A stretch of 33,467 nucleotides of DNA from a virus. Shown here piece after piece: positions 4,602 through 32,610 of the stretch; position 1 is the stretch's first letter, and each line of letters opens with the position of its first letter. The notes beneath the pieces were generated by a model, which was not told the origin of the DNA, ran no database searches, and saw only the letters and a program-made list of their open reading frames with translations. A program made the position numbers and the translations under genes. Location: positions 1 through 33,467 of IMG/VR virus record IMGVR_UViG_3300024348_000147, one strand, 5' to 3'.

Positions 4602-5251
4602 TTGCCCTCTGGACATTCTGCTTTTAATAGTTTTGTTTTTAACTTCATCATACACCCGCATTTTTTACATTGATTAGTTACTGGTATTAAAAATGGACAG
4701 GTCTTACATATATTAAATCTTTCGTTTGCCTGCTCTTCAGATACTTTTGGCTCAGATGGATTAATTAAATCCCAAGGCCTTGTTTCTCCTAGGTTTTTTT
4801 TCCATCGTTGCCAAGGTGAATCTCCGTTTACTGCATGCCCTCCTTTTTTAATAAAGTTATTGCCATCAAATAAATCGCCATTGTTTACATCTAGCCCAGT
4901 TATGTCTAAACCAGTTACTGAAGATTTAAAAGCATTTTCCCATCTTTGTGCATGCTCTAAAGAATTTTCTACACCAAACATTGCAAAAATCTTGTAGTCT
5001 GACATTAAGCAATAAATACGATAATTATTTTTATCAAATTCTGGACCGTGAACATCTTCTCCATTTTCAAAATAAACACCATTAAATACTGAATTTATTC
5101 CTACCCCTTCGTAAGAAGTTATATCTTTGCCTGTAACATTTTTAGAAAATCCATCGATATACTTAGATAGTCTTTGTTCTGGCATTCCAGTAGTATCGAT
5201 AACACTAAAAACTTCATTATCTACTAAAAGTGCATAAACTTTATCTTGCAT
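4595..5251 (-). CDS. Two-repeat protein with C-terminal Cys4 zinc module
   Basis: 218 aa, first gene of the cargo operon. Residues about 5-63 and 77-136 are a tandem duplication (YALLVDNEVFSVI...GKDIT paired with YCLMSDYKIFAMF...GLDIT, each ending near VYFENG or NFIKKG). Residues about 178-218 form a putative zinc-binding module, CKTCP-x8-CKKCGC-x15-CPEGKW. The same module is a stand-alone 66-aa protein at 24473-24673. The repeats resemble no family I can name. The start has SD AGGGGG, which is also the 3' arm of the upstream terminator hairpin. Role unknown; the zinc module probably binds a protein or nucleic acid partner. Confidence 0.75.
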   Translation of the reverse strand: MQDKVYALLVDNEVFSVIDTTGMPEQRLSKYIDGFSKNVTGKDITSYEGVGINSVFNGVYFENGEDVHGPEFDKNNYRIYCLMSDYKIFAMFGVENSLEHAQRWENAFKSSVTGLDITGLDVNNGDLFDGNNFIKKGGHAVNGDSPWQRWKKNLGETRPWDLINPSEPKVSEEQANERFNICKTCPFLIPVTNQCKKCGCMMKLKTKLLKAECPEGKW

Positions 5252-5304: not shown

Positions 5305-6480
5305 TTAATAAATACAACTACCATTATAACAGAAGTATGGTGCAGAGCAAGGTGGTCTACATCCTGCTGCTGCTGGTGTAAATGAGTACGCTGGTGTAAA
5401 TGCATACATTGGTACGAATGAGTACACTGGTGTAAATGCATACATTGGTACGAATGTGTACACTGGTGTAAATGAATACATTGGTACGAATGTGTACACT
5501 GGTGTAAATGAATACACTGGTGTAAATGCATACATTGGTACAAATGAATATGGTGTAAATGCATACGGTGTAAATGAGTACACTGGTGTAAATGCATACG
5601 GGGTAAATGAATATGGTGTAAATGAATACGGCGTAAAGGAATACGGAGTAAATGAGTACACTGGTGTAAATGCATACGGTGTAAATGCATACGGTGTAAA
5701 TGAATATGGTGTAAATGCAAATGGTGTAAATGAATACGGCGTAAAGGAATACGGAGTAAATGAAAATGGTGTAAATGCAAATGGTGTAAATGAATACGGG
5801 GTAAAGGAATATGGTGTAAACGAATACGGTGTAAATGAATACGGTGTAAACGAGAATGTCGTTACATTTGAAGAAGAGGCCGATGCTGTTCCAGATCCGT
5901 TATCATTTGTTGCGTAGATTGTATAAGACTGAGTTCCTGATTGAGTAATGTTTACAGAAGTTGCTCCAGCACCTGCAGAAGCAGATGAACCGTCATTTCC
6001 TGTAATTACATAACCAGTAATTGCTTTTCCACCTGTCGATGTCTGTGGAGACCATGTAACTGTGTCATATTGTGCTCCCGCTACGTTTGCTGCTGCACCT
6101 GGATTTGGTGATGATACACCTGGTGCAGACATTGTTGCTGGAACTGTTGTAACGGTTACTGCAGCAGAGGCAGAGGAGGCTGCAGAGGTTCCTGCAGCGT
6201 TAGTTGCTGTTACTGTAAATGTTGGAGTTGCAGTTGAAGCAATTCCAGTTACAATAATAGGAGAAGATGCTCCAGTTGCTGTTTGACCAGTGCTTGCTGT
6301 TACCGTGTAGGATGTAGCAGCAGGAGAAAGTGCTGGTAAAGAAAATGCTACAGAAACTGCTCCATTATTGAACGCTCTTCCTGTTCCAACGTCTGTTCCA
6401 GTAACACCTGTTGGTGCTAATGGCTCCAAAAAGTCATTTGACGCTTGGGACTTCTTACCTATTCTCTTACCTGATGCCAT
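5305..6480 (-). CDS. Tail-associated protein: two Fn3-like domains plus about 30 YSFTP repeats
   Basis: 391 aa. Residues about 20-115 and 116-210 are Ala/Thr/Ser-rich beta domains with fibronectin-III character (SYTVTAST, PTFTVTATNAAGTSAAS; KAITGYVITG, QSYTIYATNDNGSGTAS). Then come about 30 copies of a five- to six-residue unit, Y(S/A)FTP or VYSFTP / MYAFTP, up to about residue 368. The end is a short Cys-rich cap, CRPPC-x5-CYNGSC. Such Fn3-plus-repeat architecture suits a virion surface fibre that binds host sugars weakly; this role is inferred from the neighbouring fibre genes. SD AGGAG precedes ATG 6480. Residue-periodic repeats make long open frames on the other strand, which are shadows. 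Confidence 0.75.
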   Translation of the reverse strand: MASGKRIGKKSQASNDFLEPLAPTGVTGTDVGTGRAFNNGAVSVAFSLPALSPAATSYTVTASTGQTATGASSPIIVTGIASTATPTFTVTATNAAGTSAASSASAAVTVTTVPATMSAPGVSSPNPGAAANVAGAQYDTVTWSPQTSTGGKAITGYVITGNDGSSASAGAGATSVNITQSGTQSYTIYATNDNGSGTASASSSNVTTFSFTPYSFTPYSFTPYSFTPYSFTPFAFTPFSFTPYSFTPYSFTPFAFTPYSFTPYAFTPYAFTPVYSFTPYSFTPYSFTPYSFTPYAFTPVYSFTPYAFTPYSFVPMYAFTPVYSFTPVYTFVPMYSFTPVYTFVPMYAFTPVYSFVPMYAFTPAYSFTPAAAGCRPPCSAPYFCYNGSCIY

Positions 6481-6513: not shown

Positions 6514-9111
6514 TTACGCTGTCAAGTCGCCAAAGACAACCCATGTATTTGCTGCTCTCTTAAAGAGAGTTGCAGATGACCAAGTTGTACGAAGTTTCAA
6601 GCCAGGTGTTGCGTTAACAGTTACAGTTCCATCTACTGGGGCAATTGTTACTTGTCCTGCTCCAGTTTGAAGAATATCAATAGATGTTCCTACTGGATAT
6701 GCTACTGCTGTATTTGTAGGGATTGTAATTGTTACTCCAGTTGCAGAAGAAACTTCAATTAACGAATCTCTTTCTGTAAGTGCTGAAAGTGTATAGGCTG
6801 CAGTCTTTTGAACAATTGGTGTCCGTGAGGCTACGCCTTCCTTTGTTTGTGTACCGTCTGTAAATGCTACTCCAGATGCTGCAACTGTTACTGTACCAGT
6901 AAATGTTGGTGAAGCAAGTGGTGCCTTTAAACCAAGGCTTGTTGTGACTGTTGATGCAAAGTTTGCGTCATCACCAAGTGCTGCAGCGAGTTCATCAAGT
7001 GTGTTAAGTGCTGCTGGAGCACCTGTTAGTAGTGCATTAACTTGTGATGTTGCATCTGCGATTGCTTCTGCCTTTGCAGTTGCGATTGCTGAAGCCTGTG
7101 CAGTTGAAACTGGCTTTGCTGTATCGGCTGTGTTATCAGCAGATCCTAGTCCAACCATAGTCTTTGTAATACCAGAAACAGTACCTGTAAATGTTGGTGA
7201 AGCAACTGGTGCTAATAGACCAAGAGCAGTGTCAAGTCCTGAAATCTTTGATGTTGCTATTGCTGCTGTTGCACTTATGTCTCCATTAACAATTGTTAAG
7301 TCTGCAATCTTAGCAGAAGTAACTGCTCCATCTGCAATCTTTAATGTTTCAACAGCATCTGTTGCAAGTTCAGATGATGCTACTGCGCCAGCAACAATCT
7401 TTGAAGAAGTTACTGCATTGTCTGCAATCTTTAATGTAGTTACTGAGCCTGTAGCAAGTTTTCCTTCTGTAACATTTGCATCAACAATGTGTGCTGTTTC
7501 AACTGAAGAATCTGCAATCTTGGCAGAAGTTACTGCATCATCATTAATCTTTGCTGATGTTATTGCTAGGTTTGCAACTTTAGCGGTAGTAACTGCATCT
7601 GCTGCGATCTTGGCATCTGTAATTGCAAGTGCTGCGATTTTAGCAGTTGTTACTGATAGACCAACAATTTCGGTTGTTCCAACTGAGTCATCAGTTAGGT
7701 GTGACTGAGAAATTGAATTATCTGCAATCTTAGAACCAGTTACAGCAGCGTCTGCAATCTTAGAAGATGTTACTGCATCTGCTGCAATCTTTGCATCTGT
7801 AACTGCAAGGGCTGCGATCTTGGCATCTGTAACTGCAAGGGCTGCGATTTTAGCAGTTGTTACTGCAAGATCATTAATTTTTAATGTTTCAACAGAATTA
7901 GTTGCAAGTTCTGATGCTCCAACGGCTGATGCAGCGATTTTGTCTGCAGTTACAGCGCTGTCTGCGATATTTGTTGTTTCAACTGCTCCTGTTGCAATCT
8001 TTCCAGAAGTAACTGCAAGGGCTGCGATCTTACCAGTTGTAACTGATAAACCACCAAGTTCGTTTGTTCCAACTGAGTCATCAGTTAGGTGTGACTGAGA
8101 AATTGAATTATCTGCAATCTTAGAACCAGTTACAGCAGCGTCTGCAATCTTAGAAGATGTTACTGCTGCTGCATCAATCTTTGCAGTTGTTACTGCAAGA
8201 TCGTTAATTTTTAATGTTTCAACAGAATTAGTTGCAAGTTCTGATGCTCCAACAGCAGATGATGCAATTTTGTCTGCAGTTACAGCGCTATCTGCAATAT
8301 TTGCTGTTTCAACTGCTAGTAATGCAATCTTTCCAGAAGTAACTGAAGAATTGTCAATTTTTGCAGTAGTTACTGCAAGATCATTAATTTTTAGTGTTTC
8401 TACTGCTGAAGTAGCAATTTGTGTTGCAGCAACGGCACTATCTGCAATCTTATCATTTGTTACTGCATCGTTTGCAATTTTAATTGTTGTAACAGAATCT
8501 GTAGCAAGTTTTCCTGCTGTAACATTTCCGTTATTTATTTTTGCAGTTGTTACTGCGCTATCTGCTATCTTTGATGTTTCGATTGCAAGGTCAGCAATTT
8601 TTGCAGTTGTTACTGCGCCTTCTGCTATTTTTGATGTTACTACAGAAAGATCTTCTGGTGTTCGTTCATCTGAGAATCTTTCATCAGTTACATATGCTAA
8701 ATCTCCTGTATCTGAAATTCCGTGTATGCCAGCAGATGCTGCTGCATGCTGGTTTAACTGATCAATTGCTGAACCAAGTTCTGCAAATGTATCTAGGTTT
8801 GCATTAGAGCCTTCAACCAACTTAGCCATATAAGCAAGAGGAATAAGTCCATCTGCGTTAAGTGGTGCAGTTCTAGTATAGTTTGCTGGATCAGAGGCAT
8901 CTCCAATTTCTGCATAAGTTACAAAATCATCAAGACCGCCAAGATCTTCTAAATTTTTAAAGTATGAAAGGCCTGACCAAACAGTGCTTCCGTCACCCAT
9001 CTTAAACTGATTAGTGTCTGTTTCGAAACCAATCTCACCTGCTGCTAATACTGGGTTTGCAGCCGTCCATTGTGCTGCAGTACCTCTGCGCTGTTGCATT
9101 CTTGTTGACAT
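6514..9111 (-). CDS. Long tail fibre with Mtd-type N-terminus and AVTTAKIAD repeats
   Basis: 865 aa. The N-terminus MQQRRGTAAQW...NPVLAAGEIGFETDTNQFKMGDG..W is the attachment domain found at the start of many phage receptor-binding proteins, including Bordetella phage Mtd. Residues about 150-600 are degenerate 10-11-residue repeats of the kind SAVTTAKIADL, likely a trimeric beta-helical or coiled shaft. Then PLASPTFTGTV modules and an ALNTLDELAAALGDD segment, and a C-terminal beta domain (about 760-865) ending TWVVFGDLTA. That domain is also seen in the 683-aa protein at 17393-19444. A perfect 102-bp direct repeat lies inside the shaft. The gene has its own hairpin plus SD leader. Function: host recognition. 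Confidence 0.85.
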   Translation of the reverse strand: MSTRMQQRRGTAAQWTAANPVLAAGEIGFETDTNQFKMGDGSTVWSGLSYFKNLEDLGGLDDFVTYAEIGDASDPANYTRTAPLNADGLIPLAYMAKLVEGSNANLDTFAELGSAIDQLNQHAAASAGIHGISDTGDLAYVTDERFSDERTPEDLSVVTSKIAEGAVTTAKIADLAIETSKIADSAVTTAKINNGNVTAGKLATDSVTTIKIANDAVTNDKIADSAVAATQIATSAVETLKINDLAVTTAKIDNSSVTSGKIALLAVETANIADSAVTADKIASSAVGASELATNSVETLKINDLAVTTAKIDAAAVTSSKIADAAVTGSKIADNSISQSHLTDDSVGTNELGGLSVTTGKIAALAVTSGKIATGAVETTNIADSAVTADKIAASAVGASELATNSVETLKINDLAVTTAKIAALAVTDAKIAALAVTDAKIAADAVTSSKIADAAVTGSKIADNSISQSHLTDDSVGTTEIVGLSVTTAKIAALAITDAKIAADAVTTAKVANLAITSAKINDDAVTSAKIADSSVETAHIVDANVTEGKLATGSVTTLKIADNAVTSSKIVAGAVASSELATDAVETLKIADGAVTSAKIADLTIVNGDISATAAIATSKISGLDTALGLLAPVASPTFTGTVSGITKTMVGLGSADNTADTAKPVSTAQASAIATAKAEAIADATSQVNALLTGAPAALNTLDELAAALGDDANFASTVTTSLGLKAPLASPTFTGTVTVAASGVAFTDGTQTKEGVASRTPIVQKTAAYTLSALTERDSLIEVSSATGVTITIPTNTAVAYPVGTSIDILQTGAGQVTIAPVDGTVTVNATPGLKLRTTWSSATLFKRAANTWVVFGDLTA
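7674..8165 (-). repeat. Perfect 102-bp direct repeat within the fibre shaft
   Basis: Positions 7674-7775 and 8064-8165 are identical and 390 bp (130 codons) apart, in frame. Flanking units also recur with few changes, so the shaft seems to have grown by recent block duplication and could change length by recombination. Confidence 0.85.
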
Positions 9112-23520: not shown

Positions 23521-24473
23521 AGTTTTTTAATAAGGATGCCAGAGAGGTTTTTCTTGCGCCACAAAGCGTAGACCTATTTTTAGTTCACCCGCCATTTTTT
23601 AATACAAATAATCAACATTATGGTGGAGATATCTCTATGCAACTTCAAAATACAGAAAATGTAGAAGAATTTTATGAATCAATGACTACCTGTATGAAAA
23701 ATATGGAAGAATCGCTAACAGAGGCTGGAAGCATACTTTTGCTTTTGCCAAATGAGCATATGTCATTTCGAGTTATTGCTGATATAGCAAATAATACAAA
23801 CCTTACAATCAATAGATCTTTATTTTGGAATTTTGAAAAAAGTTATTTTGTCAACTCAATAACAGGTGGCGAGACAAACCTTATTTTGCACATAACCAAA
23901 AATAAAAATTTTCAATATCCCATAGCAGGGCTAAATAGTTTTGTTATAAACCAGGATTGGGTTCCATCGGATATCGATGTTCCTCAGTATAACGATATTG
24001 CATTTGTGTATGATTCATTTCCACATGAATTGTCTGATTTACTTGTCCCGCTTTTTTCAAAAGAAGGAGATACGGTTGCAGACATATTTGGAGGAACAGG
24101 CACTGTGGCTATATCGACATTAAAAAATAAAAGAAAAGCAATATATAATGACGCTTCATCAGCACAAGCCGAAATAGCCAAAAAACGAGTTGGTGCTATA
24201 ATAGATAGTCTAGAGAAGGAGAAAGAAATGACAGTAGGTCAGTTTGCAGAAACAGATCCAATTTTTGAAACATTGGAACAAAAGACAGCACGTAGGGATA
24301 TAGTCGAAATTATGGCACTTACGGTTGAAGATTTAAATCGTGAGCAAGCCAGAAAGCAATCACCAGAAGCGTTAGCACAAATCGAAGACTGGATTAAGGA
24401 TCAGCGTCCAAACCTAGAAGTAATGCTTAATGCTATCTATGATTCTTTGAAAAAGGCTAACGTCACAATCTGA
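23511..24473 (+). CDS. DNA methyltransferase-like protein with HPPF in place of DPPY
   Basis: 320 aa. SAM motif I is DIFGGTGTVAIS (191-202) and comes after motif IV, as in beta-class amino-methyltransferases. YNDASSAQAEIAKKRV (212-227) resembles the following target-end helix. Motif IV at 26-29 is HPPF, where N6-adenine and N4-cytosine enzymes have (D/N/S)PP(Y/F/W); the first residue is normally Asp, Asn or Ser. It may be inactive, have another amino target, or have shifted chemistry. Residues 235-320 are a charged helical tail with no partner nuclease nearby. The TGATG junction with the following zinc gene shows coupling. Confidence 0.65.
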   Translation: MEIEFFNKDAREVFLAPQSVDLFLVHPPFFNTNNQHYGGDISMQLQNTENVEEFYESMTTCMKNMEESLTEAGSILLLLPNEHMSFRVIADIANNTNLTINRSLFWNFEKSYFVNSITGGETNLILHITKNKNFQYPIAGLNSFVINQDWVPSDIDVPQYNDIAFVYDSFPHELSDLLVPLFSKEGDTVADIFGGTGTVAISTLKNKRKAIYNDASSAQAEIAKKRVGAIIDSLEKEKEMTVGQFAETDPIFETLEQKTARRDIVEIMALTVEDLNREQARKQSPEALAQIEDWIKDQRPNLEVMLNAIYDSLKKANVTI

Positions 24474-24673
24474 TGTCTGATGATGTTCAGTTTAGTGATT
24501 TATTTGATCCAAGACAGCCTAGGTCAGACAAAGAACTAATTGAACAACGACTTGAGATATGCAATGCGTGTCCCTGGTTTAATAAAAGATTGGTAAAATG
24601 TAGGAAGTGTGGATGTTTTATGAAGTTAAAAACTACATTGAAACTTGCACAATGTCCTATAGGAAAATGGTGA
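24473..24673 (+). CDS. Small Cys4 zinc protein
   Basis: 66 aa. CNACPWFNKRLVKCRKCGCFMKLKTTLKLAQCPIGKW is the same module as the C-terminus of the 218-aa protein at 4595-5251 (CKTCP...CKKCGCMMKLKTKLLKAECPEGKW). It likely binds one zinc ion. The N-terminal 28 residues are acidic (SDDVQFSDLFDPR). Coupled by TGATG to the methyltransferase. Confidence 0.72.
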   Translation: MSDDVQFSDLFDPRQPRSDKELIEQRLEICNACPWFNKRLVKCRKCGCFMKLKTTLKLAQCPIGKW

Positions 24674-26306: not shown

Positions 26307-26337
26307 ATAGTAGTAATACTATCATAGGGGACTGACA
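26307..26337 (-). promoter_or_regulatory. TGTCAG-type promoter with -10 dyad
   Basis: Minus strand TGTCAG (26337-26332), 10 bp, -10 TAGTAT (26321-26316). The dyad ATAGTA-TTAC-TACTAT spans 26307-26322. CRP-type box centre lies 52.5 bp upstream of the -10. Confidence 0.6.
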
Positions 26338-26365: not shown

Positions 26366-26381
26366 TGTGATATGCACCACA
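26366..26381 (-). promoter_or_regulatory. CRP/GlxR-type box
   Basis: Minus strand TGTGG-TGCATA-TCACA, one mismatch to TGTGA-N6-TCACA, exact in the half nearer the promoter. Centre 26373.5, 52.5 bp from the -10 at 26321. Confidence 0.55.
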
Positions 26382-26406
26382 TATATTTGGCTACTATTTA
26401 ATTGTT

Positions 26407-26443
26407 ATAGGAGTATCCTATCACATACCCTGCCAAAAGTCAA
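26407..26443 (-). promoter_or_regulatory. Upstream tandem promoter with -10 dyad
   Basis: Minus strand -35 TTGACT (26443-26438), 17 bp, -10 TAGGAT (26420-26415). Dyad ATAGG-N5-CCTAT at 26407-26421. About 100 bp upstream of the other minus promoter. Confidence 0.65.
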
Positions 26444-26446
26444 GAC

Positions 26447-26554
26447 GACACGCCGTATATTGAATGTGATCTACACCACATTGGGACGTCGCCTGTGGAT
26501 AACCTGTGCATAAACTATGTGACCCTTATCACAAAAATACTTTCCAGACACGCC
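26447..26554. promoter_or_regulatory. Shared control region between divergent small-gene operons
   Basis: Contains GACACGCC (26447-26454), CRP-type box TGTGG-N6-TCACA read on minus (26465-26480; 52.5 bp from the -10 at 26420), GACGTC (26485-26490) and DnaA-box-like TGTGGATAA (26494-26502) and TGTGCATAA (26505-26513). These are followed by exact TGTGA-CCCTTA-TCACA (26518-26533; 62.5 bp from the -10 at 26588) and GACACGCC (26547-26554). No gene in this 480-bp gap. Confidence 0.6.
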
Positions 26555-26571
26555 CGAGAAACAGGCTAATT

Positions 26572-26603
26572 TGTCAGTGGTAGGTGTTATACTTCTAGTA
26601 TAA
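26572..26603 (+). promoter_or_regulatory. TGTCAG-type promoter with -10 dyad
   Basis: TGTCAG (26572-26577), 10 bp, TGT-TATACT (-10 at 26588-26593); dyad TTATACT-TCT-AGTATAA at 26587-26603. Drives the CxxC microprotein operon. Confidence 0.65.
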
Positions 26604-26644
26604 AGAAAGTTGAGAAAGGTTCTCAAACTTAGAAAGGTCAGAAA

Positions 26645-26818
26645 ATGACAAATAGAATATGGGAAAGTCGTAATGACTACCAAAATGAAAGTGACGCTAT
26701 GCGTCTTGGATATGTAGCCTGCTCAGCAGGTTGCGGTAGAGTAACCGCTTGGTCGCTCTGCACTATGTGTGGCGGTAACTACGCTACTCATAACCTAGTA
26801 GGAAAGGGGTCTAAATAA
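26645..26818 (+). CDS. Zinc-ribbon microprotein (57 aa)
   Basis: Reads MTNRIWESRNDYQNESDAM, then RLGYVACSAGCGRVTAWSL and CTMCGGNYATHNLVGKGSK. Cys at about 26, 30, 39 and 42 (C-x3-C...C-x2-C) suggests one zinc. TAATG with the next gene. Function unknown. Confidence 0.65.
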   Translation: MTNRIWESRNDYQNESDAMRLGYVACSAGCGRVTAWSLCTMCGGNYATHNLVGKGSK

Positions 26819-27006
26819 TGACTCAACTAACAATAACAAAATGCTCAGAGTTTTCAGAGCATAACCCTATGAAATCTGCTATCTCAGAAATTGGAGATGA
26901 GCAATTTACTTTCTGCCAAGATTGTGAAAATAACATTGAGCGTTGGTATGATGATACCGACCCTGAGCGTCTGCCTATGTGGTCAAGATGGAAGGTTACT
27001 AAATAA
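26818..27006 (+). CDS. Small Cys-containing protein (62 aa)
   Basis: Reads MTQLTITKCSEFSEHNP... with FTFCQDCENNIERWYDDTDPERLPMWSRWKVTK. One CxxC at about 33-36 plus an earlier Cys and His. TAATG junctions on both sides. No known family. Confidence 0.65.
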   Translation: MTQLTITKCSEFSEHNPMKSAISEIGDEQFTFCQDCENNIERWYDDTDPERLPMWSRWKVTK

Positions 27007-27143
27007 TGACTAAACTAATTTGTTGCTTTTGTGAAAAAGTCTATTCTAGCGAAACTAAGTTTTGCTTTTCTTGTAATGAATATAAAGGTCTAATGACCAT
27101 AAAAGAATTTGACGAATACTACGGAGAAAGGATTTATTCCTAA
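27006..27143 (+). CDS. Zinc-ribbon microprotein (45 aa)
   Basis: CCFCEKVYSSETKFCFSCNEY: two CxxC pairs (about residues 6-9 and 20-23), a minimal zinc ribbon, then an acidic tail. TAATG junctions on both sides. Confidence 0.65.
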   Translation: MTKLICCFCEKVYSSETKFCFSCNEYKGLMTIKEFDEYYGERIYS

Positions 27144-27241
27144 TGAGTTTTTATCAAACCTTTTTTGAAAGTGGTAATGCACTATTCTGGTTTTCTATGA
27201 TCTGTTTAATAAGTGGATTTTATTTATTTGTAAAAGAATAA
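27143..27241 (+). CDS. Membrane microprotein (32 aa)
   Basis: Reads MSFYQTFFESGNALFW then FSMICLISGFYLFVKE: a single membrane helix. TAATG with the preceding gene; last of the operon. Confidence 0.55.
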   Translation: MSFYQTFFESGNALFWFSMICLISGFYLFVKE

Positions 27242-27265
27242 ATTTAATTCCCTGCAAAAAAATGG

Positions 27266-27335
27266 GACGTCTCCTGTGGATAACTTGTGGATAACTTGTG
27301 TGATGTTTATCACAAAAATACTTTTCCGACACGCC
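27266..27335 (+). promoter_or_regulatory. Composite control cassette
   Basis: GACGTC (27266-27271), two exact TGTGGATAA boxes (27275-27283, 27286-27294), TGTGA-TGTTTA-TCACA (27299-27314; centre 62.5 bp from -10) and GACACGCC (27328-27335). Spacings between GACGTC, the CRP-type box, GACACGCC and the -10 equal those at 26485-26593. Confidence 0.62.
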
Positions 27336-27352
27336 CGAAAAACACCCTAAAA

Positions 27353-27384
27353 TGTCAGACCCCCCTGCTATACTTACTAGTATA
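27353..27384 (+). promoter_or_regulatory. TGTCAG-type promoter with -10 dyad
   Basis: TGTCAG (27353-27358), 10 bp, TATACT (27369-27374); dyad TATACT-TACT-AGTATA at 27369-27384. Confidence 0.62.
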
Positions 27385-27427
27385 AAGATTGAACAATAAG
27401 TAAATCTCTTAAAGAAAGGAATTCAAA

Positions 27428-27673
27428 ATGAATTCACTAAAAGAAAAAGGATTTAAATTATCCTACCGAGTGGAGTTAGATACTAACCCACGCTATCCTC
27501 TAATGAAAGAGTTTAGTACTTGCCTAGGAGTTATCTTTAACTCAGAAATTGAGGCTAACAATTACTTAGACCTCGTAGCCTTAAAAGGTACAATACTAGA
27601 AACTAATCTAGTAGAAATCGAATACACTCCACGCAATAGCGTAGTGTATGCTACCAACAGAAGTTGGGAGTAA
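27428..27673 (+). CDS. Small phage protein (81 aa)
   Basis: Not recognised. Alpha-beta pattern KGFKLSYRVELDTNPRYPLMKEFSTCLGVIFNSEIEANNYLDLVALKGTILETNLVEIEYTP; first gene of the second small-gene operon with SD GAAAGGA. Probably an early host-takeover protein, by position only. Confidence 0.65.
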   Translation: MNSLKEKGFKLSYRVELDTNPRYPLMKEFSTCLGVIFNSEIEANNYLDLVALKGTILETNLVEIEYTPRNSVVYATNRSWE

Positions 27674-27677
27674 TACT

Positions 27678-27801
27678 AATGAAAGATTTCGTAGAAAAAT
27701 TAGAATTAGAAACCTACTGGGAAAGTCCAGCATTAGGAATTCACCCTGATTTAGCAAAAATGCTAGATGAGGCAATCAAGAAAGGTAGTTATACTAAATG
27801 A
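27678..27801 (+). pseudogene. Small gene with a probable frameshift at GGGG
   Basis: ATG 27678 reads MKDFVEKLELETYW, then a run of four G (27718-27721) leads to an early stop at 27747-27749 (23 aa). With one G fewer, the frame continues ESPALGIHPDLAKMLDEAIK KGSYTK to a stop at 27799-27801 and gives a 40-aa protein that meets the next gene by an ATGA overlap. Either a sequencing/assembly homopolymer error, a real lesion, or a programmed shift. Confidence 0.5.
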
Positions 27802-27962
27802 GTACACTTGTACCAATTAAATCAGTATGTGGTGCGACAAGCACTAGCATAGACATCTATGACTTAGAGTTAAACCCTCACGGAGTTATCTGTTGCGATA
27901 ACTGTAAGTCAATCCTAGTCTGTCGCAAGGCTTGGGACTTTCTCTATAAGGTAGGTAAGTAA
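27798..27962 (+). CDS. Cys-rich microprotein (54 aa)
   Basis: GVICCDNCKSILVCRKAW: CC-x2-C-x5-C near residues 32-42, likely metal binding. ATGA overlap with the preceding frame. Function unknown. Confidence 0.62.
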   Translation: MSTLVPIKSVCGATSTSIDIYDLELNPHGVICCDNCKSILVCRKAWDFLYKVGK

Positions 27963-28109
27963 ATGAATACACACGATAAAAGAGAATTAGCATACGCATT
28001 AGCAAAAGAAAAATACGGAGATAACGCTTATGTTGCTCTATGGGGTAGTGCTGGCGTACTACTTACCGAACAAGATTTAGATACTGTAATTAAAGTAATG
28101 GAGAAATAA
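27963..28109 (+). CDS. Small protein (48 aa)
   Basis: Reads MNTHDKRELAYALAKEKYGD then NAYVALWGSAGVLLTEQDLD and TVIKVMEK. Helical, no cysteines, no known family. Starts directly after the previous stop. Confidence 0.58.
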   Translation: MNTHDKRELAYALAKEKYGDNAYVALWGSAGVLLTEQDLDTVIKVMEK

Positions 28110-28111
28110 AA

Positions 28112-28204
28112 ATGAAAACACTTCAAGAAAAATTAGACGAAAGCGCAAAAGCGTTAGAGCCAATTCTTTGGGAATTACTAGATGAGATTGAGGAGAATAA
28201 ATAA
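28112..28204 (+). CDS. Acidic helical microprotein (30 aa)
   Basis: Reads MKTLQEKLDESAKALEPI then LWELLDEIEENK. Strongly acidic amphipathic helix. Abuts the next ATG. Confidence 0.48.
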   Translation: MKTLQEKLDESAKALEPILWELLDEIEENK

Positions 28205-28348
28205 ATGAAGAAAAATGTTTTAATTAGTTTTGTAACTGAAGCAGATACAGATCTTCAAGCAGTTTTTAATTTAAATAAAGTTTTTGCTAAACTTAGCGAA
28301 AACGAATTAGAAAAATTTAATGCGTTTGAAGTTTTACCTGTTGAATAA
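28205..28348 (+). CDS. Small protein (47 aa)
   Basis: Reads MKKNVLISFVTEADTDL then QAVFNLNKVFAKLSENELEK and FNAFEVLPVE. Starts with a beta strand, then a helix. Unknown function. Last of the operon, followed by a strong terminator. Confidence 0.58.
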   Translation: MKKNVLISFVTEADTDLQAVFNLNKVFAKLSENELEKFNAFEVLPVE

Positions 28349-28358
28349 ATAAACCAAG

Positions 28359-28384
28359 ATCGCAGAATAAAATCTGCGATTTTT
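28359..28384 (+). terminator. Intrinsic terminator
   Basis: Perfect 8-bp stem ATCGCAGA / TCTGCGAT, loop ATAAAA, then TTTT. Ends the 27428-28348 operon. Confidence 0.82.
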
Positions 28385-28385
28385 G

Positions 28386-28421
28386 GACGTCCCGTGTGAC
28401 CGACATCACATGCGACACGCC
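28386..28421 (+). promoter_or_regulatory. Composite control cassette
   Basis: GACGTC (28386-28391), TGTGA-CCGACA-TCACA (28395-28410; centre 52.5 bp from the -10) and GACACGCC (28414-28421; 41 bp before the -10, the same as at the two earlier plus-strand cassettes). Confidence 0.6.
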
Positions 28422-28431
28422 GTGTTTGGAC

Positions 28432-28468
28432 TTGACTTTTTAACATTTTTCTGATACTATTCTAGTAT
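28432..28468 (+). promoter_or_regulatory. Sigma-A-type promoter with -10 dyad
   Basis: TTGACT (28432-28437), 17 bp, TACTAT (28455-28460). Dyad ATACTA-TTC-TAGTAT at 28454-28468. The transcript starts AACAATTAAATAA as in the minus-strand leader at 26300. Confidence 0.65.
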
Positions 28469-28493
28469 AACAATTAAATAAAGATAAATCAGG

Positions 28494-28549
28494 CAGTGAG
28501 CCTAGCAAATAAATGTGACCAGTATCACAGTGAGCCTAGCGAATAAATG
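28494..28549 (+). repeat. 22-bp direct repeat flanking a CRP-type box
   Basis: 28494-28515 and 28528-28549 differ at one base (CAGTGAGCCTAGC then AAATAAATG or GAATAAATG). Between them lies TGTGA-CCAGTA-TCACA (28514-28529), whose centre is 52.5 bp from the next -10 (28574). Confidence 0.65.
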
Positions 28550-28557
28550 CCCTAATT

Positions 28558-28590
28558 TGTCAGCCCCCCGTGATAGGATAGTCTTATCAC
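28558..28590 (+). promoter_or_regulatory. TGTCAG-type promoter
   Basis: TGTCAG (28558-28563), 10 bp, TAGGAT (28574-28579), with the palindrome GTGATA-N9-TATCAC at 28570-28590. Second promoter in tandem with the one at 28432. Confidence 0.58.
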
Positions 28591-28611
28591 TTAAAGAAAG
28601 GAAGTCTATAA

Positions 28612-28797
28612 ATGACTTACACTATAACACTAGAAACCTTTTCAGGTTCTACTAAAAAAATCAGCCTTGCCTCTAAAGGTGCGGTTGCTCAATTCATCTC
28701 AACTTATCCAACACAATTACCTGTTGGCGTTGTTGTAAAAATGTCGTGTGACGCTTTAGGCGTTAGCGGTGTTCTAAGAGGAAAGGCGGTTCTATAA
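28612..28797 (+). CDS. Small phage protein, paralogue of the 25558-25752 product (61 aa)
   Basis: TYTITLETFSGSTKKISLASKGAVAQFISTYPTQLPVGVVVKMSCDALGVSGV. Same pattern as its minus-strand paralogue (T-x-GSTK, xQLPVGxxV, LGxxSGxxxGK), with similar control DNA. Unknown function. SD GAAAGGAAG upstream. Confidence 0.65.
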   Translation: MTYTITLETFSGSTKKISLASKGAVAQFISTYPTQLPVGVVVKMSCDALGVSGVLRGKAVL

Positions 28798-28941
28798 ATG
28801 ATAAACTCCGTCTTAACAATTCCCTGCGAGGAATGTAATTCAACTGGTCTAATCTTTTTTGGAAACGATGAGGATTTTGATGTAGAAACTTGCGAATGCG
28901 ATTTTGGTATTGAGCAAGACCTAGAACAATTTAACAACTAA
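28798..28941 (+). CDS. Zinc-finger-like microprotein (47 aa)
   Basis: TIPCEECNSTGLIFFGNDEDFDVETCECDFGIEQ: a C-x2-C-x-x-x-G half finger of the DnaJ type and a CxC. Paralogous to the 29894-30046 product (CEKCYGQG...GEDFDTESCDC). Abuts the preceding stop. Confidence 0.62.
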   Translation: MINSVLTIPCEECNSTGLIFFGNDEDFDVETCECDFGIEQDLEQFNN

Positions 28942-28961
28942 AAGAATAGGAAATAAAATAA

Positions 28962-29168
28962 ATGAAAACAGTAGAACACTCTCTAAAATTCGTAACAGAA
29001 TTTGATGAAACTCACCCAATAGGAGCGCAAGCCCTTTCTATCCCCCACTCAGAATTAGTAAAACTTCTTGAAGGTATGCTAAAAGAATTACTAGTTCCTA
29101 AATTACAGCCTGCTCTTGATGAAATAAATGAGCGTGGCACTTACGCAATTCTAAAGGTGGCCGAATAA
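28962..29168 (+). CDS. Small helical protein (68 aa)
   Basis: Not recognised. HSLKFVTEFDETHPIGAQALSIPHSELVKLLEGMLKELLVPKLQPALDEINERGTYAILKV. Amphipathic helices, acidic. TAATG with the next gene; SD TAGGAAA. Confidence 0.6.
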   Translation: MKTVEHSLKFVTEFDETHPIGAQALSIPHSELVKLLEGMLKELLVPKLQPALDEINERGTYAILKVAE

Positions 29169-29260
29169 TGAGCGATTACTTAGAATACTTAGACGAAATC
29201 TACGAGGAATTAGTAGATGAATTTGGACACGAAATAGAAAGCGAGTGTGCTCACAAATGA
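29168..29260 (+). CDS. Acidic microprotein (30 aa)
   Basis: Reads MSDYLEYLDEIYEELVDE then FGHEIESECAHK. Highly acidic helix. TAATG at its start and ATGA at its end link it to both neighbours. Confidence 0.48.
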   Translation: MSDYLEYLDEIYEELVDEFGHEIESECAHK

Positions 29261-29454
29261 TGACACGAAAAGACTATGTCGCTACTGCTGAAATTCTTAG
29301 CAATTATTTTGCTACTTCTGTTTTTGATGAGCAAGGAGAAATTTTATTTTCTGATTTAGTAGATGAATTTTCTTTAATGTTTGAAACAGATAATCCAAGA
29401 TTTGACGCAAATAAATTTGCTCTTGCTTGCTATAAAGAAAGTGCGTTTGCGTAA
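29257..29454 (+). CDS. Small protein with MTRKDYV start (65 aa)
   Basis: MMTRKDYVATAEILSNYFATSVFDEQGEILFSDLVDEFSLMFETDNPRFDANKFALACYKESAFA. The TRKDYVxxAEIL...NPRFDxxKFxxAC pattern is widespread in actinophage and plasmid small proteins of unknown role. Start chosen by the ATGA overlap at 29257; ATG 29245 would overlap further. Confidence 0.65.
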   Translation: MMTRKDYVATAEILSNYFATSVFDEQGEILFSDLVDEFSLMFETDNPRFDANKFALACYKESAFA

Positions 29455-29474
29455 CTCATTAAGTAGCAAAAAAG

Positions 29475-29506
29475 ATTTTCCCATTTTGATCGGTGGGAAA
29501 ATTTTT
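29475..29506 (+). terminator. Intrinsic terminator
   Basis: Perfect 9-bp stem ATTTTCCCA / TGGGAAAAT, 10-nt loop, then TTTTT. Confidence 0.8.
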
Positions 29507-29508
29507 GC

Positions 29509-29573
29509 GACGTCGGGGTCGGGCGTGTCGTACACAAGTTATACACAGGGTTTAAGATGTGAGATTTATCACA
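29509..29573 (+). promoter_or_regulatory. Composite control cassette
   Basis: GACGTC within CGACGTCG (29509-29514), GGCGTGTC (29522-29529, inverted GACACGCC), DnaA-box-like TTATACACA (29539-29547), and TGTGA-GATTTA-TCACA (29558-29573; centre 73.5 bp from the -10). Confidence 0.58.
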
Positions 29574-29614
29574 TGACTTGAGCGTCTCAGTATTTGGAAT
29601 TACTCGCTAGTAGG

Positions 29615-29655
29615 TTGATAAATGTCAGTAGAAAATGATAGGATTACAGAGTAAT
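29615..29655 (+). promoter_or_regulatory. TGTCAG-type promoter with dyad
   Basis: TTGATA (29615-29620), TGTCAG (29623-29628), 10 bp, TAGGAT (29639-29644); dyad ATTAC-AGA-GTAAT at 29643-29655. Confidence 0.58.
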
Positions 29656-29688
29656 AAGTTAATTAAAGAAAAAGAAAGAGGTTGGCAA

Positions 29689-29892
29689 ATGTCAGCAAAT
29701 GTCTATACAATAGAACACCTACTAGTAGGAACACCTTATCGCTCACGCACTTTAACAGGCGAAATAATCTCAGCAGAGATACACCCTAAAGCAGTTTGGT
29801 ATCAAGGTTGCGAAAGTTATCTAGTGGAAGTGCGCCCTAGTAATTTTGGAAAAGTCGTATGTCGCACAGTAGCAGTAAAGGTAGAAAATTAA
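29689..29892 (+). CDS. Small beta protein (67 aa)
   Basis: SANVYTIEHLLVGTPYRSRTLTGEIISAEIHPKAVWYQGCESYLVEVRPSNFGKVVCRTVAVKVEN. Beta-barrel-like; function unknown. ATG 29689 has SD AAAGAGG; the in-frame ATG at 29635 lies upstream of the -10 and cannot be used from this promoter. Confidence 0.62.
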   Translation: MSANVYTIEHLLVGTPYRSRTLTGEIISAEIHPKAVWYQGCESYLVEVRPSNFGKVVCRTVAVKVEN

Positions 29893-29893
29893 A

Positions 29894-30046
29894 ATGGGAG
29901 TAATGAAAACACTATACACAGAAATAGAAAATTGCGAAAAATGCTATGGGCAAGGTTGGCAATTTTGGGCACAGGGTGAGGACTTTGATACAGAGTCTTG
30001 CGATTGTAATCCACACCAATTATTTATCACTAAGGAGAATAACTAA
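29894..30046 (+). CDS. Zinc-finger-like microprotein (50 aa)
   Basis: CEKCYGQGWQFWAQGEDFDTESCDCN, paralogous to the 28798-28941 product. CxxCxGxG is a half DnaJ zinc finger. An alternative start at 29903 (third Met codon onward) is possible. TAATG with the next gene. Confidence 0.62.
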   Translation: MGVMKTLYTEIENCEKCYGQGWQFWAQGEDFDTESCDCNPHQLFITKENN

Positions 30047-30267
30047 TGAATAACGAATACCTATACTCAATAACCGCAACCTATGATAGCGCAACCGCAG
30101 CGCATTGGGTTGGTCGCTACTCAGACGCAATTAGCGCAGTGACCGAATGGAATAAAATAACGGATTGGGGATTTGCTGATGAATACGCAACCTACAATTT
30201 CTCAGAGCCTTCAGGTAAAATGACTACTAAGATTTTTTATCGTGATGGAAAGGTCGGTGGAAAGTAA
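30046..30267 (+). CDS. Small phage protein (73 aa)
   Basis: MNNEYLYSITATYDSATAAHWVGRYSDAISAVTEWNKITDWGFADEYATYNFSEPSGKMTTKIFYRDGKVGGK. Aromatic-rich alpha-beta sequence common in actinophage accessory regions; no function known. TAATG junctions. Confidence 0.65.
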   Translation: MNNEYLYSITATYDSATAAHWVGRYSDAISAVTEWNKITDWGFADEYATYNFSEPSGKMTTKIFYRDGKVGGK

Positions 30268-30431
30268 TGGAAATTTTTGAGTTTAATACTTTCATAGATG
30301 TCGAGGCAGAGTCGTATGATGAAGCCATTGATGTCTTTCAATTCCAATTAAAGTATGGAATAAGTAAAGATAATGTCTATGTCGCAGACATAAAGCAATT
30401 AACTAACAACAACGAAAGTGTAGAGGTATAA
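30267..30431 (+). CDS. Small protein (54 aa)
   Basis: EIFEFNTFIDVEAESYDEAIDVFQFQLKYGISKDNVYVADIKQL. Alpha-beta, acidic. Coupled to the previous gene by TAATG. Unknown. Confidence 0.6.
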   Translation: MEIFEFNTFIDVEAESYDEAIDVFQFQLKYGISKDNVYVADIKQLTNNNESVEV

Positions 30432-30434
30432 ATA

Positions 30435-30722
30435 ATGGGAAGCGTAACAGCAATTGGATTAGCAGATAGCGTATTAGATTTAGAAACACAATTAGGTTAT
30501 CACTTGCAGGGTAATCACTATCCACCAGTACCGCTAAGCATGGTACAACCTTGCATTGAGGCTATTGATGCAGCCTATGATGAGGACTATGATAGAGAAA
30601 TTGCTATGCCACAAGGCATATTCTATAAAGGCAGTAATGTCGCACCAGCATGGGCAGTAATTGAACAACACCACCTATCATGGTTCATTGACCCAGTAGA
30701 TGAGTATGAAGATGAAGAATAA
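30435..30722 (+). CDS. Small protein (95 aa)
   Basis: Not recognised. GSVTAIGLADSVLDLETQLGYHLQGNHYPPVPLSMVQPCIEAIDAAYDEDYDREIAMPQGIFYKGSNVAPAWAVIEQHHLSWFIDPVDEYEDEE. A helical N-terminus and a PPVPL turn; the acidic tail overlaps the next frame's possible starts. Confidence 0.65.
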   Translation: MGSVTAIGLADSVLDLETQLGYHLQGNHYPPVPLSMVQPCIEAIDAAYDEDYDREIAMPQGIFYKGSNVAPAWAVIEQHHLSWFIDPVDEYEDEE

Positions 30723-30735
30723 AACACCTGATACA

Positions 30736-30966
30736 ATGAAAACTATGGAATTGATCCACGCAGATAACTTGGAACCTAATCAACTAATGATTGGCGATTT
30801 AATTAAAGTTAATGATGACATTGTTGAAGTTATTTTTATTGAAAGTGATTCAACAGGAGATAACTATGACATACAAACCGAAAATGAATTTGGTGAAAAG
30901 GAATTTATACAGTATGCTTATACTGATTTAATTCCGTTGTATGTTTTTATTGAAGAATCAGAATAG
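30736..30966 (+). CDS. Small protein with EPNQLMIGDLIKV motif (76 aa)
   Basis: MKTMELIHADNLEPNQLMIGDLIKVNDDIVEVIFIESDSTGDNYDIQTENEFGEKEFIQYAYTDLIPLYVF. Looks like a small beta-barrel (a turn at GD, then VEV-x-x-I), similar in type to the VGDLYT proteins further on. The start is uncertain: in-frame ATGs at 30700, 30706 and 30712 overlap the previous gene, and none has a clear SD. Confidence 0.55.
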   Translation: MKTMELIHADNLEPNQLMIGDLIKVNDDIVEVIFIESDSTGDNYDIQTENEFGEKEFIQYAYTDLIPLYVFIEESE

Positions 30967-30995
30967 TTTTTGTGCGCTTCCCCGCATAAAAATCT

Positions 30996-31022
30996 GACGT
31001 CCCGCCTGTGAGATTTATCACA
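30996..31022 (+). promoter_or_regulatory. Composite control cassette
   Basis: GACGTC (30996-31001) and TGTGA-GATTTA-TCACA (31007-31022), centre 41.5 bp from the -10. No GACACGCC here. Confidence 0.6.
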
Positions 31023-31031
31023 TTTTAAGAT

Positions 31032-31061
31032 TTGACATTTTTATGTAATGTGTGTTAGTAT
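31032..31061 (+). promoter_or_regulatory. Leaderless promoter
   Basis: TTGACA (31032-31037), 18 bp, TGT-TAGTAT (-10 at 31056-31061), then 6 nt to ATG 31068. The only plus-strand gene here with a clear leaderless layout. Confidence 0.65.
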
Positions 31062-31067
31062 TAGTTT

Positions 31068-31211
31068 ATGAAGAAAACACAAGAGGAATTACGTAGGCTT
31101 ATGGAATTACGCCGTAGCAATGCAGCCTCTGCCGTACCCTCTAAAAAGAAATATACTCGCAAGGGTAGAAAATGTCAGTCAGACATGCTACAATTAAAAG
31201 AAAACAATTAA
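31068..31211 (+). CDS. Basic microprotein (47 aa)
   Basis: Reads MKKTQEELRRLMELRRSN then AASAVPSKKKYTRKGRKC and QSDMLQLKENN. Very Arg/Lys-rich with a helical start; a possible DNA- or RNA-binding peptide. Leaderless start. Unknown family. Confidence 0.55.
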   Translation: MKKTQEELRRLMELRRSNAASAVPSKKKYTRKGRKCQSDMLQLKENN

Positions 31212-31227
31212 GAAAGGTCGCCCCACT

Positions 31228-31404
31228 ATGACATTCGAAAACGATGAAATACTAGATGAATACTATGCAACAACCTGCCCCTCTTGCCGTGAAAACTCAG
31301 TTGATGAGTATGAAGAAAAATGCACTCATTGTCTACTAGAAGAAATGTCCGCTACCTATAACGAAGACATTGCTCTAGAAATGAGTCTAGGTCTTGACTA
31401 CTGA
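31228..31404 (+). CDS. Acidic zinc-ribbon microprotein (58 aa)
   Basis: YYATTCPSCRENSVDEYEEKCTHCLLEEMSATYNEDIALEMSLGLDY. Two CxxC pairs form a compact zinc ribbon in an acidic chain. Its end overlaps the TTG start of the gp88-like gene by 11 nt. Confidence 0.65.
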   Translation: MTFENDEILDEYYATTCPSCRENSVDEYEEKCTHCLLEEMSATYNEDIALEMSLGLDY

Positions 31405-32134
31405 TACAATTACTCTTAAACTAAAACGCTCTAATGATAGAAAGGTGGCTAACCTTGTCACAAAAAATGGAAAACAAGCAGCAATCGCAAATACCTTCGG
31501 CCTACCTGCTGGAAAGGCTTTCTCGTGCCCTGGTGCCACTAGTGTTTGTGAAAGCGTATGCTACGCAGGAAAACTCGAAAAACTCTTTAAGGGTGTAAAG
31601 GCTAATCTCCTACACAATTGGGAACTGATTAAGGACGCTGATCAAAAAACCGCTGAAAGTTTATTAACTGAAATGATTAATGATTTTCGTGCAGACTGTG
31701 TAAAGAAAGACGCCCCTATGCTATTTCGCATTCACTGGGACGGAGATTTCTTTAATGACACTTACACGCTTGCATGGAAAAGTGTCATCCTAAATAATCC
31801 TGATATTCAATTCTGGGTGTACACTCGTGTTAAGTCTGCTGCTTTAATTCTTAAGGACATTGAAAACCTTTCTCTTTACTTTAGCACTGATAGCGAGAAT
31901 GTAAAAATTGGCGTTGACTTAAAAAATAATCAAGGCATTCGTCTTGCATACCTTGCTAAGAATTTTGCTATCGGTCAAGCAGATATGAAAGAAATGATTG
32001 GTAAGCCTGGTGCTAAGTGTCCTGAAAACAATAAACAAATTCCACTTATCTCAACCAATGGAAGCGCTTGCGTTTCTTGTTCACTTTGTGTATACTCTAA
32101 GAGTGATATTGTATTCTCTGCGAGTAAAAAATAA
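31394..32134 (+). CDS. gp88-family phage protein
   Basis: 246 aa. AFSCPGATSVCESVCYAGK (Cys45, 52, 56), LFRIHWDGDFFNDTYTLAWKSVI (about 110-132) and the end KCPEN...GSACVSCSLC (Cys209, 226, 229, 232) are the family features I know from gene product 88 of mycobacteriophages and related phages and plasmids. Cys spacing suggests two metal clusters, zinc or Fe-S. The molecular function is not established. It uses a TTG start overlapping the preceding gene; no ATG is available near the start. Confidence 0.75.
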   Translation: MTTDTITLKLKRSNDRKVANLVTKNGKQAAIANTFGLPAGKAFSCPGATSVCESVCYAGKLEKLFKGVKANLLHNWELIKDADQKTAESLLTEMINDFRADCVKKDAPMLFRIHWDGDFFNDTYTLAWKSVILNNPDIQFWVYTRVKSAALILKDIENLSLYFSTDSENVKIGVDLKNNQGIRLAYLAKNFAIGQADMKEMIGKPGAKCPENNKQIPLISTNGSACVSCSLCVYSKSDIVFSASKK

Positions 32135-32206
32135 ATGAAAGAACTATTATATATAGCGATGATGTTAATAATTGTAATGTCATTTCTTAGTAGTTCTGGG
32201 ACCTGA
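32135..32206 (+). CDS. Membrane microprotein (23 aa)
   Basis: Reads MKELLYIAMMLIIVMSFL then SSSGT: one membrane helix. Abuts the gp88 stop. Could be spurious, but its position suggests translation. Confidence 0.4.
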   Translation: MKELLYIAMMLIIVMSFLSSSGT

Positions 32207-32209
32207 TCC

Positions 32210-32286
32210 CCGCTTAAATGCGGGACGTCGCCCCCACCTGCATTTGTCAAGTTACGACACGCATAAAAAATGTGGGGTTTGTCACA
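32210..32286 (+). promoter_or_regulatory. Composite control cassette with hairpin
   Basis: Hairpin CCCGC-N6-GCGGG before GACGTC (32224-32229), GACACGC (32256-32262), and TGTGG-GGTTTG-TCACA (32271-32286, one mismatch). The hairpin has no U-run, so terminator function is doubtful. Confidence 0.5.
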
Positions 32287-32312: not shown

Positions 32313-32346
32313 TTATGACATTTTTATGTCATAATTGTATTATACC
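32313..32346 (+). promoter_or_regulatory. Promoter with perfect TGACAT palindrome
   Basis: Palindrome TTATGACAT-TTTT-ATGTCATAA (32313-32334, 9-bp arms), then TATTAT or TATACC as -10 (32338 or 32341). The -10 choice is ambiguous; TATACC puts the CRP-type box 62.5 bp away. Confidence 0.5.
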
Positions 32347-32547: not shown

Positions 32548-32610
32548 TGTGAGAAATGTCAGAAATAGATTTGACATTTTAATCTACAAAATGTTATACT
32601 TAGGTATAAC
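32548..32610 (+). promoter_or_regulatory. Promoter with two palindromes
   Basis: AAATGTCA-N10-TGACATTT (32554-32579) covers -35 TTGACA (32571-32576); after 18 bp, TGT-TATACT (32595-32600) lies in GTTATAC-TTAG-GTATAAC (32593-32610). A weak CRP-type TGTGA-N6-TCAGA is at 32548-32563 (39.5 bp away, off phase). Confidence 0.65.

Follow-up and report, generated by a model that had tools for sequence, protein, structure and literature searches.

The window analysed here is the whole of virus record IMGVR_UViG_3300024348_000147, a stretch of 33,467 bases that is probably part of a longer genome. Its right-hand part carries tightly packed plus-strand genes, and in the gaps between them lie copies of the palindrome TGTGA-N6-TCACA, which matches the operator of GlxR/CRP-type cAMP receptor proteins (CRP). 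Six exact copies (26518–26533, 27299–27314, 28395–28410, 28514–28529, 29558–29573 and 31007–31022, all on the plus strand) and three copies with one mismatch (26366–26381 and 26465–26480 on the minus strand, 32271–32286 on the plus strand) were found, all of which a preliminary description of this DNA, made from the letters alone, had listed. Its placement of the boxes in non-coding gaps also held; some boxes are overlapped by mechanically called open reading frames (ORFs), which were judged spurious by eye. When up to one mismatch was allowed, ten copies were present in the window, compared with a mean of 2.04 and a maximum of 7 in 100 shuffles. Base composition predicts 0.038 exact copies, which reproduces the earlier estimate of about 0.04. 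The tenth copy, at 32548, lies 39.5 bp from a −10 element, overlaps an ATGTCAG and is probably due to chance.

Distances were taken from the box centre to the first base of the −10 element, and transcription start sites were placed from the −10 elements. On the plus strand, a promoter scan found TATACT at 26588–26593 and at 27369–27374, each 62.5 bp from the boxes at 26518 and 27299, TACTAT at 28455–28460 (52.5 bp from the box at 28395, with a −35 TTGACT at 28432–28437), TAGGAT at 28574–28579 (52.5 bp from the box at 28514) and TAGGAT at 29639–29644 (73.5 bp from the box at 29558). The box at 31007 is followed at 41.5 bp by a −10 TAGTAT (31056–31061) with a −35 TTGACA at 31032–31037; the start codon at 31068 lies 6 nt downstream of this −10, and the gene looks leaderless. 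On the minus strand, the scan placed −10 elements 52.5 bp from both boxes: TAGTAT at 26316–26321 for the box at 26366, and TAGGAT at 26415–26420, with a −35 TTGACT at 26438–26443, for the box at 26465. The eight distances (one of 41.5, four of 52.5, two of 62.5 and one of 73.5 bp) are thus those initially proposed. No promoter was found by the scan for the box at 32271, so an additional 62.5-bp case suggested there (TATACC at 32341) is at most possible. The same scan contained weaker alternatives, namely a rightward TACCCT 52.5 bp from 26366, a −10 at 70.5 bp from 26518 and another at 57.5 bp from 28514.

Relatives were collected by scanning IMG/VR with the window protein encoded at 31394–32134, a GP88 protein (Pfam PF17338); the best 80 of at least 592 matches were kept, 1.355 Mb in total. 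Among named phages, 378 records include a GP88 protein; 270 of them come from Mycobacterium phages and 101 from Streptomyces phages. Conservation of the motif in relatives had been set beforehand as a test, and the exact box was present in 80/80 loci, with 450 copies. In the same loci, spacers of 4, 5, 7 and 8 bp gave 6, 1, 1 and 1 copies, and the reversed word gave 3; the 6-bp spacer characteristic of CRP/GlxR operators is therefore fixed. Together with the shuffles and the base-composition expectation, these controls reject a chance origin of the boxes. The core consensus in relatives, TGTGAT-N-T, also fits the CRP/GlxR operator. Ungapped dereplication of the box surroundings left 86 of 451 boxes. 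Twelve virus records of 66–115 kb all contained boxes (12/12), and in the nine whose box positions were followed these were confined to one region each, spanning the record ends in G004 and with a single outlier in G009 and in G004; record G001, for example, has seven boxes between positions 55,937 and 66,494 of its 109,057 bases. A second scan, in which an exact box had to lie 5–35 bases beyond a DnaA box, returned at least 120 stretches. Among the 120 listed, 101 contain a gene whose product is related to one of eight proteins of the window; of the 19 that do not, 15 have TGTCAG promoters or the motif GACACGCC, both described below. The intergenic share of boxes in the relatives could not be used: greedy ORF calling was too crude, and its count of 175/456 was set aside. 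A Pfam scan of ten small window ORFs gave nothing above the cut-off, and PHROGs gave only weak matches to unknown families. A per-locus 7-mer scan added little.

When box-to-−10 distances were plotted for the relatives, they were not random, and the helical phasing of the window proved conserved, with −10 elements assigned from sequence. Rightward promoters formed peaks at 41.5–42.5, 52.5, 62.5 and 72.5–73.5 bp, leftward promoters at 52.5 and 62.5 bp. Some boxes in the relatives form abutting tandems exactly 16 bp apart (for example L005:4860, L009:4319 and L011:4799), the upstream centre 73.5 bp and the downstream centre 57.5 bp away from the −10. To limit the contribution of common descent, promoters with orthologous downstream genes were grouped, and each distance was counted once per group. 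Phase at a 10.5-bp period then gave R = 0.71 (n = 66), R = 0.845 (n = 61) without the second members of tandems, and R = 0.79 (n = 42) with one modal value per ortholog group. The remaining TAnnnT words of these stretches, grouped likewise, gave R = 0.29 (n = 112), and none of 5000 subsamples (0/5000) reached the observed value. Without grouping, the control made from all remaining TAnnnT words gave R = 0.30 (n = 609) from non-independent data; the grouped control is the fairer one. Within ortholog groups (42 groups, tandem second members excluded), 10 of 13 shifts in distance fell within 1.5 bp of a multiple of 10.5 bp (p = 4e-4).

The promoters at 40.5–42.5 bp differ from the rest in one respect: a start codon follows the −10 by 4–9 nt in 67/67 cases (the window pair 31007–31068 included), compared with 8/431 at other distances. 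This four-turn class therefore looks to serve leaderless genes. If the start codon is taken as the start site, the four-turn box is centred at −53.5/−54.5, and the other classes lie at about −64.5, −74.5 and −85. A class II CRP site is centred near −41.5 and overlaps the −35 element. The nearest class here, 41.5 bp from the −10, lies at −53.5 from the start site derived from it and is thus no class II arrangement; with starts placed in this way, the sites lie upstream of the −35 position and are helically spaced, as class I sites are. A centre at −53.5/−54.5 differs from both the class I and the class II spacing of E. coli. Since the box precedes the presumed start, a reading of TGTGA/TCACA as an RNA hairpin is thought unlikely.

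The preliminary description of these promoters was incomplete, as it overlooked DnaA boxes, the motif GACACGCC, a clade-specific palindrome (GACGTC in the window) and a core in which TGTCAG is separated by 10 bp from the −10. On the minus strand, a DnaA box TTATCCACA, identical to a word near dnaA of candidate host genome G045, lies at 26494–26502, 11 bp from a DnaA-like box TTATGCACA at 26505–26513, and two TTATCCACA boxes 11 bp apart occupy 27275–27294; a DnaA-like box TTATACACA is found on the plus strand at 29539–29547. GACACGCC occurs on the plus strand at 26447–26454, 26547–26554, 27328–27335 and 28414–28421 and on the reverse strand at 29522–29529. TGTCAG is present on the minus strand at 26332–26337, 10 bp from the leftward −10, and on the plus strand at 26572–26577, 27353–27358, 28558–28563, 29623–29628 and, again 10 bp from a −10, at 33384. 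The six copies of GACGTC in the window (26485–26490, 27266–27271, 28386–28391, 29509–29514, 30996–31001 and 32224–32229) lie exclusively in these promoter gaps. A 107-bp promoter module occurs twice, at 26471–26577 and 27252–27358; the copies are 80% identical and carry GACGTC, DnaA boxes, the CRP box and GACACGCC in equal order.

The same words recur in the relatives. Across the 80 loci TTATCCACA was found 426 times, compared with 8 for its reverse, and GACACGCC 332 times, compared with 0. Within 60 bp of the 456 boxes (window included) there was a perfect DnaA box in 101 cases and GACACGCC in 144. DnaA-type words in one orientation and less than 40 bp apart were mostly spaced by 11 or 12 bp (104 of 138 pairs); no phasing of DnaA boxes to the −10 was detected at 10.5 bp (R = 0.13 and 0.17). 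On the G045 contig start, TTATCCACA lies at −58, 55 and 1601 around dnaA- and dnaN-like genes named from sequence, so the phage word is the one at this presumptive host origin, and because of this match the boxes may let the replication state of the cell be read. A phage-encoded DnaA was considered and rejected, as the DnaA C-terminal domain was found in 0/13 phage records. GACACGCC, often followed by G, stands at a set of distances from the −10 (37.5, 29.5–30.5 and 84.5–87.5 bp), and its phase in the two orientations gave R = 0.70 (n = 22) and R = 0.50 (n = 25).

Seven common −10 words were sought 6–16 bp downstream of TGTCAG, and when one was present the spacer was exactly 10 bp in 524/559 cases (relatives and window). 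Only 113 of 757 TGTCAG-N10-TAnnnT promoters had a TTGAY −35 at 17–18 bp, which suggests dependence on an activator. TGTCAG was also considered as a host promoter feature and provisionally rejected: in 400 kb of G045 the four spacer-10 matches looked by eye like chance or coding sequence, and the whole genome showed a slight excess (7 versus 2 and 4 at neighbouring spacers). In phage record G001, 12 of 14 −10-linked TGTCAG copies lie between 55,330 and 66,712. A further word, ATGTCCG, is found upstream of TGTCAG in the relatives at 37, 45–47 or 53–54 bp from the −10, in steps of about 8 bp that are not helical. The palindrome varies by locus: among 81 loci, GACGTC was assigned to 10, GGCGCC to 9, CACGTG to 9, CCCGGG to 4 and GCTAGC, away from promoters, to 2, and 47 had no clear word. 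Thus 32/81 loci (L011, L027, L055 and L066 among them) have a palindrome of their own at promoters, and the median count of GACGTC, GGCGCC and CCCGGG across the 81 loci is zero. When like promoters were compared by eye, GACGTC at 28386 of the window and GGCGCC just before 6514 of L011 occupied equal positions. The palindrome looks like a phage-type-specific operator, comparable to those of immunity groups.

Several observations bear on the host. WhiB is encoded in 9/13 phage records, an indication that the host is an actinobacterium. Among published freshwater actinophages, on which PMC6802176 and PMC10914622 also report, two Planktophila isolates with genomes of 39 kb carry whiB according to the accessible part of their description (PMC10202952). 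A GP88 contig was found in the Actinomycetota metagenome-assembled genome (MAG) G014. A tRNA-Asp (gtc) gene was noted in 20 of 23 phage loci scanned, one of which also has a tRNA-Arg; the tRNA of L205 was poorly alike. For the tRNA-Asp of L005, the best full-length match (81%) was shared by nine genomes of 1.3–2.0 Mb, four of them in the family of G014, and a higher score came from one large genome, over an alignment of only 62 bases. This family, which on the basis of genome size and composition we take to be Nanopelagicaceae, was represented by 61 genomes. The host probably belongs to the freshwater actinobacteria.

The regulator itself had been left between a host GlxR/CRP protein and a phage copy. 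The comparative data favour the host protein: the cNMP-binding domain PF00027 was found in 0/12 relative virus records, which may be fragments, and no match to it was seen among 20 window ORFs scanned, so that a phage-encoded CRP regulon is not supported. In the presumed host family PF00027 was present in 47/61 genomes, in 46 of them within a CRP-sized or contig-end frame and in one only within a 618-residue frame. The recognition helix was identical in all 12 family proteins read and is standard, as in M. tuberculosis CRP; among solved structures, the best matches of the G045 protein were M. tuberculosis CRP and C. glutamicum GlxR.

The genomes of this presumed host family avoid the word in which the phages are rich. 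Across the 61 genomes GTGA-N6-TCAC occurred 472 times, compared with 1475 for the N9 spacing and 1386 for the reversed word, a threefold avoidance, and it was rarer than N9 in 60/61 genomes and equal in one. In G045 it occurred twice, compared with 11–25 times for nine other spacings, while two-mismatch N6 sites were enriched between genes (35 versus 16–24; Fisher p = 1e-4). Perfect boxes numbered 3 in the 61 genomes, compared with 14 for the reversed control, and one of the three lies on a G014 contig that carries a phage-like tRNA and looks like phage. The large MAG G013 showed no avoidance of the word (12 versus 5); four copies were on contig C31, which is taken to be a phage contig. The simplest reading would be that precisely this word is recognised by host CRP, with strong accidental sites purged from the host genome, which makes do with weak ones, and strong ones carried by the phage. 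Changing a C. glutamicum GlxR site to the perfect consensus raised both binding and promoter activity, as stated in the available text of PMC7999487.

We consider it likely, because the boxes occur in 80/80 loci and their phasing is conserved, that host CRP activates phage small-gene promoters from one face of the helix. The boxes would be operators for a host protein of the GlxR/CRP type, and CRP-cAMP would occupy such near-ideal sites even when its level is low. Bound CRP would contact RNA polymerase from one side, in a class I-like manner, at weak promoters with poor −35 regions, with four to seven turns of the helix between each −10 and the centre of its box. In this way CRP would turn on a block of small-gene operons in a large actinophage family, from composite promoters that combine its box with DnaA boxes, a GACACGCC site and the phage-specific TGTCAG element. 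CRP binding, activation rather than repression, dependence on cAMP and the identity of the host are each inferred.

A number of observations weigh against this proposal. The 80 loci are not independent, some being near-duplicates. The grouped phase control is not flat (nominal p = 8e-5), 3 of the 13 ortholog shifts (6, 7 and 15) are non-helical, and one group spans distances from 64.5 to 78.5. A class of 61 boxes at 57.5/58.5 bp is half a turn off phase; it is mostly no counter-example, because 55 of the 61 are the second box of an abutting tandem whose upstream member (up to two mismatches) is in phase at 73.5 or 74.5 bp, and six are not. The original statement that mismatches never fall in the promoter-proximal half was correct for the nine boxes listed and fails for the one at 32548; in the relatives it is a tendency, not a general rule, with the mismatch distal in 66/102 and proximal in 36/102 of in-phase one-mismatch boxes, and distal in 73/136 and proximal in 63/136 of all such boxes. 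On the host side, 14/61 genomes lack a PF00027 match, and the word is avoided in genomes of this kind as well (G023, 1 versus 17; also G025), perhaps because these are incomplete. Perfect boxes are nearly absent from the host family, so a preference of its CRP for them is at most presumed. The family was defined through one MAG, G014; binning is weak evidence of the host, because GP88 relatives fall in MAGs of three phyla (GP88 contigs were also binned into MAGs with the labels cyanobacterium and Phycisphaerae), and identity in the tRNA-Asp comparison reaches only 81%.

Other uses of the same boxes were weighed. Host CRP could bind and mainly repress, or form a switch through which metabolic state sets lysogeny or delay, on the lines of phage T1, where cAMP-CRP represses pir and the dam and recE promoters are inhibited too, at least in the accessible part of the report (PMC6737242). 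We regard this as unlikely: the boxes lie upstream of the −35 position and cover neither the −10 nor the start, distances phased over four to seven turns are a signature of activation, and the scarcity of TTGAY −35 elements at TGTCAG promoters suggests that an activator is needed. It is likewise improbable that the word is read by another host or phage regulator that is no CRP orthologue. The phages do carry WhiB and unknown small proteins that could act as readers, and the perfect site is almost absent from the host family; however, no PF00027 match was seen in 12 relative records, the host-family CRP has the standard recognition helix, and genomes of that family avoid exactly this word at exactly this spacing. 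The same near-absence of perfect host sites would allow multiplied phage DNA to outcompete them and serve as a sponge that titrates host CRP and, through the likewise dense DnaA boxes, host DnaA. A sponge, however, needs no phasing to promoters, and with phasing as strong as that observed we find this explanation very improbable.

Beyond activation by host CRP, a broader and more doubtful scheme can be sketched. In it, the accessory region of an abundant freshwater actinophage family might be run by composite promoters that read carbon state through CRP, replication state through DnaA and perhaps a further signal through WhiA with phage WhiB; consensus sites avoided by the host might outcompete host sites, and the type-specific palindrome and the TGTCAG core might add phage-specific control. 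The combination of GACACGCC, WhiA and phage WhiB is a lead only.

Other proteins of the window were noted in passing. Those encoded on the minus strand at 5305–6480 and 17393–19444 have long runs of Y-[ST]-F-[TV]-P repeats, the second together with a PASTA domain. The minus-strand gene at 6514–9111 encodes a tail-fibre-like protein that starts with Mtd_N (major tropism determinant) and has many AVTTAKIA-type repeats. Similar cysteine-rich ends, CxxCxxF/W...CxxCGCxMKLKT, are shared by the proteins at 4595–5251 (minus strand) and 24473–24673 (plus strand).

Among known systems, the phage promoters are closest to actinobacterial CRP/GlxR promoters (M. smegmatis cydAB and ahpC, C. glutamicum ldhA), which they resemble in the operator word, its spacing and the position of the site upstream of the promoter. 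The Crp-induced cydAB promoter of M. smegmatis has two Crp sites, one centred at −65.5, with −93.5 also published, in the text available from PMC7739888; −65.5 is close to 52.5 + 12, that is, to the phage 52.5-bp class at about −64.5. Another M. smegmatis Crp site is placed at −81.5 in the accessible part of PMC4218801. Unlike these promoters, those described here are phage-borne, have perfect palindromes that follow one another in a row, and combine them with DnaA boxes, GACACGCC and a TGTCAG placed 10 bp before the −10. Their four in-phase distances amount to a ready-made range of spacings for CRP-dependent activation in actinobacteria.

The GACAC motif of WhiA/WhiB promoters, as given in the available text of PMC3781837, is contained in GACACGCC, and HTH_WhiA was found in 31/31 host-family genomes searched. 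Unlike that motif, the conserved phage word is longer, and WhiA binding is only putative here. The varying palindromes (GACGTC, GGCGCC, CACGTG or CCCGGG) recall the stoperators of Cluster A mycobacteriophages, which are likewise repeated short sites that vary by phage type, going by the accessible part of PMC6550527, and GP88 relatives are found in many Mycobacterium phages (270/378 records). The Cluster A system, in contrast, has 20–30 sites in one orientation genome-wide and a cognate repressor, whereas the present 6-bp palindromes lie mostly at promoters, and no repressor gene, for which no search was made, was identified with them.

For actinophages, no report of phased CRP sites came up under the terms used in the open-access literature, nor, for phages at large, one of perfect CRP sites arrayed in phase together with DnaA boxes. 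The phage promoters would offer a testable link from host metabolic state to infection in phages that probably infect abundant actinobacteria of fresh water and of whose control little is understood, and suggest that phage DNA may reveal the preferred operator of a host regulator even where the host genome avoids that word. Phage T1, through pir, dam and recE, likewise uses host CRP to read metabolic state; it differs in that CRP represses there, and perfect sites arrayed in phase are not described in the available part of PMC6737242. Since phage genes under host CRP control are thus on record already, we file the phased array of perfect sites with DnaA boxes as a new variation on this theme.

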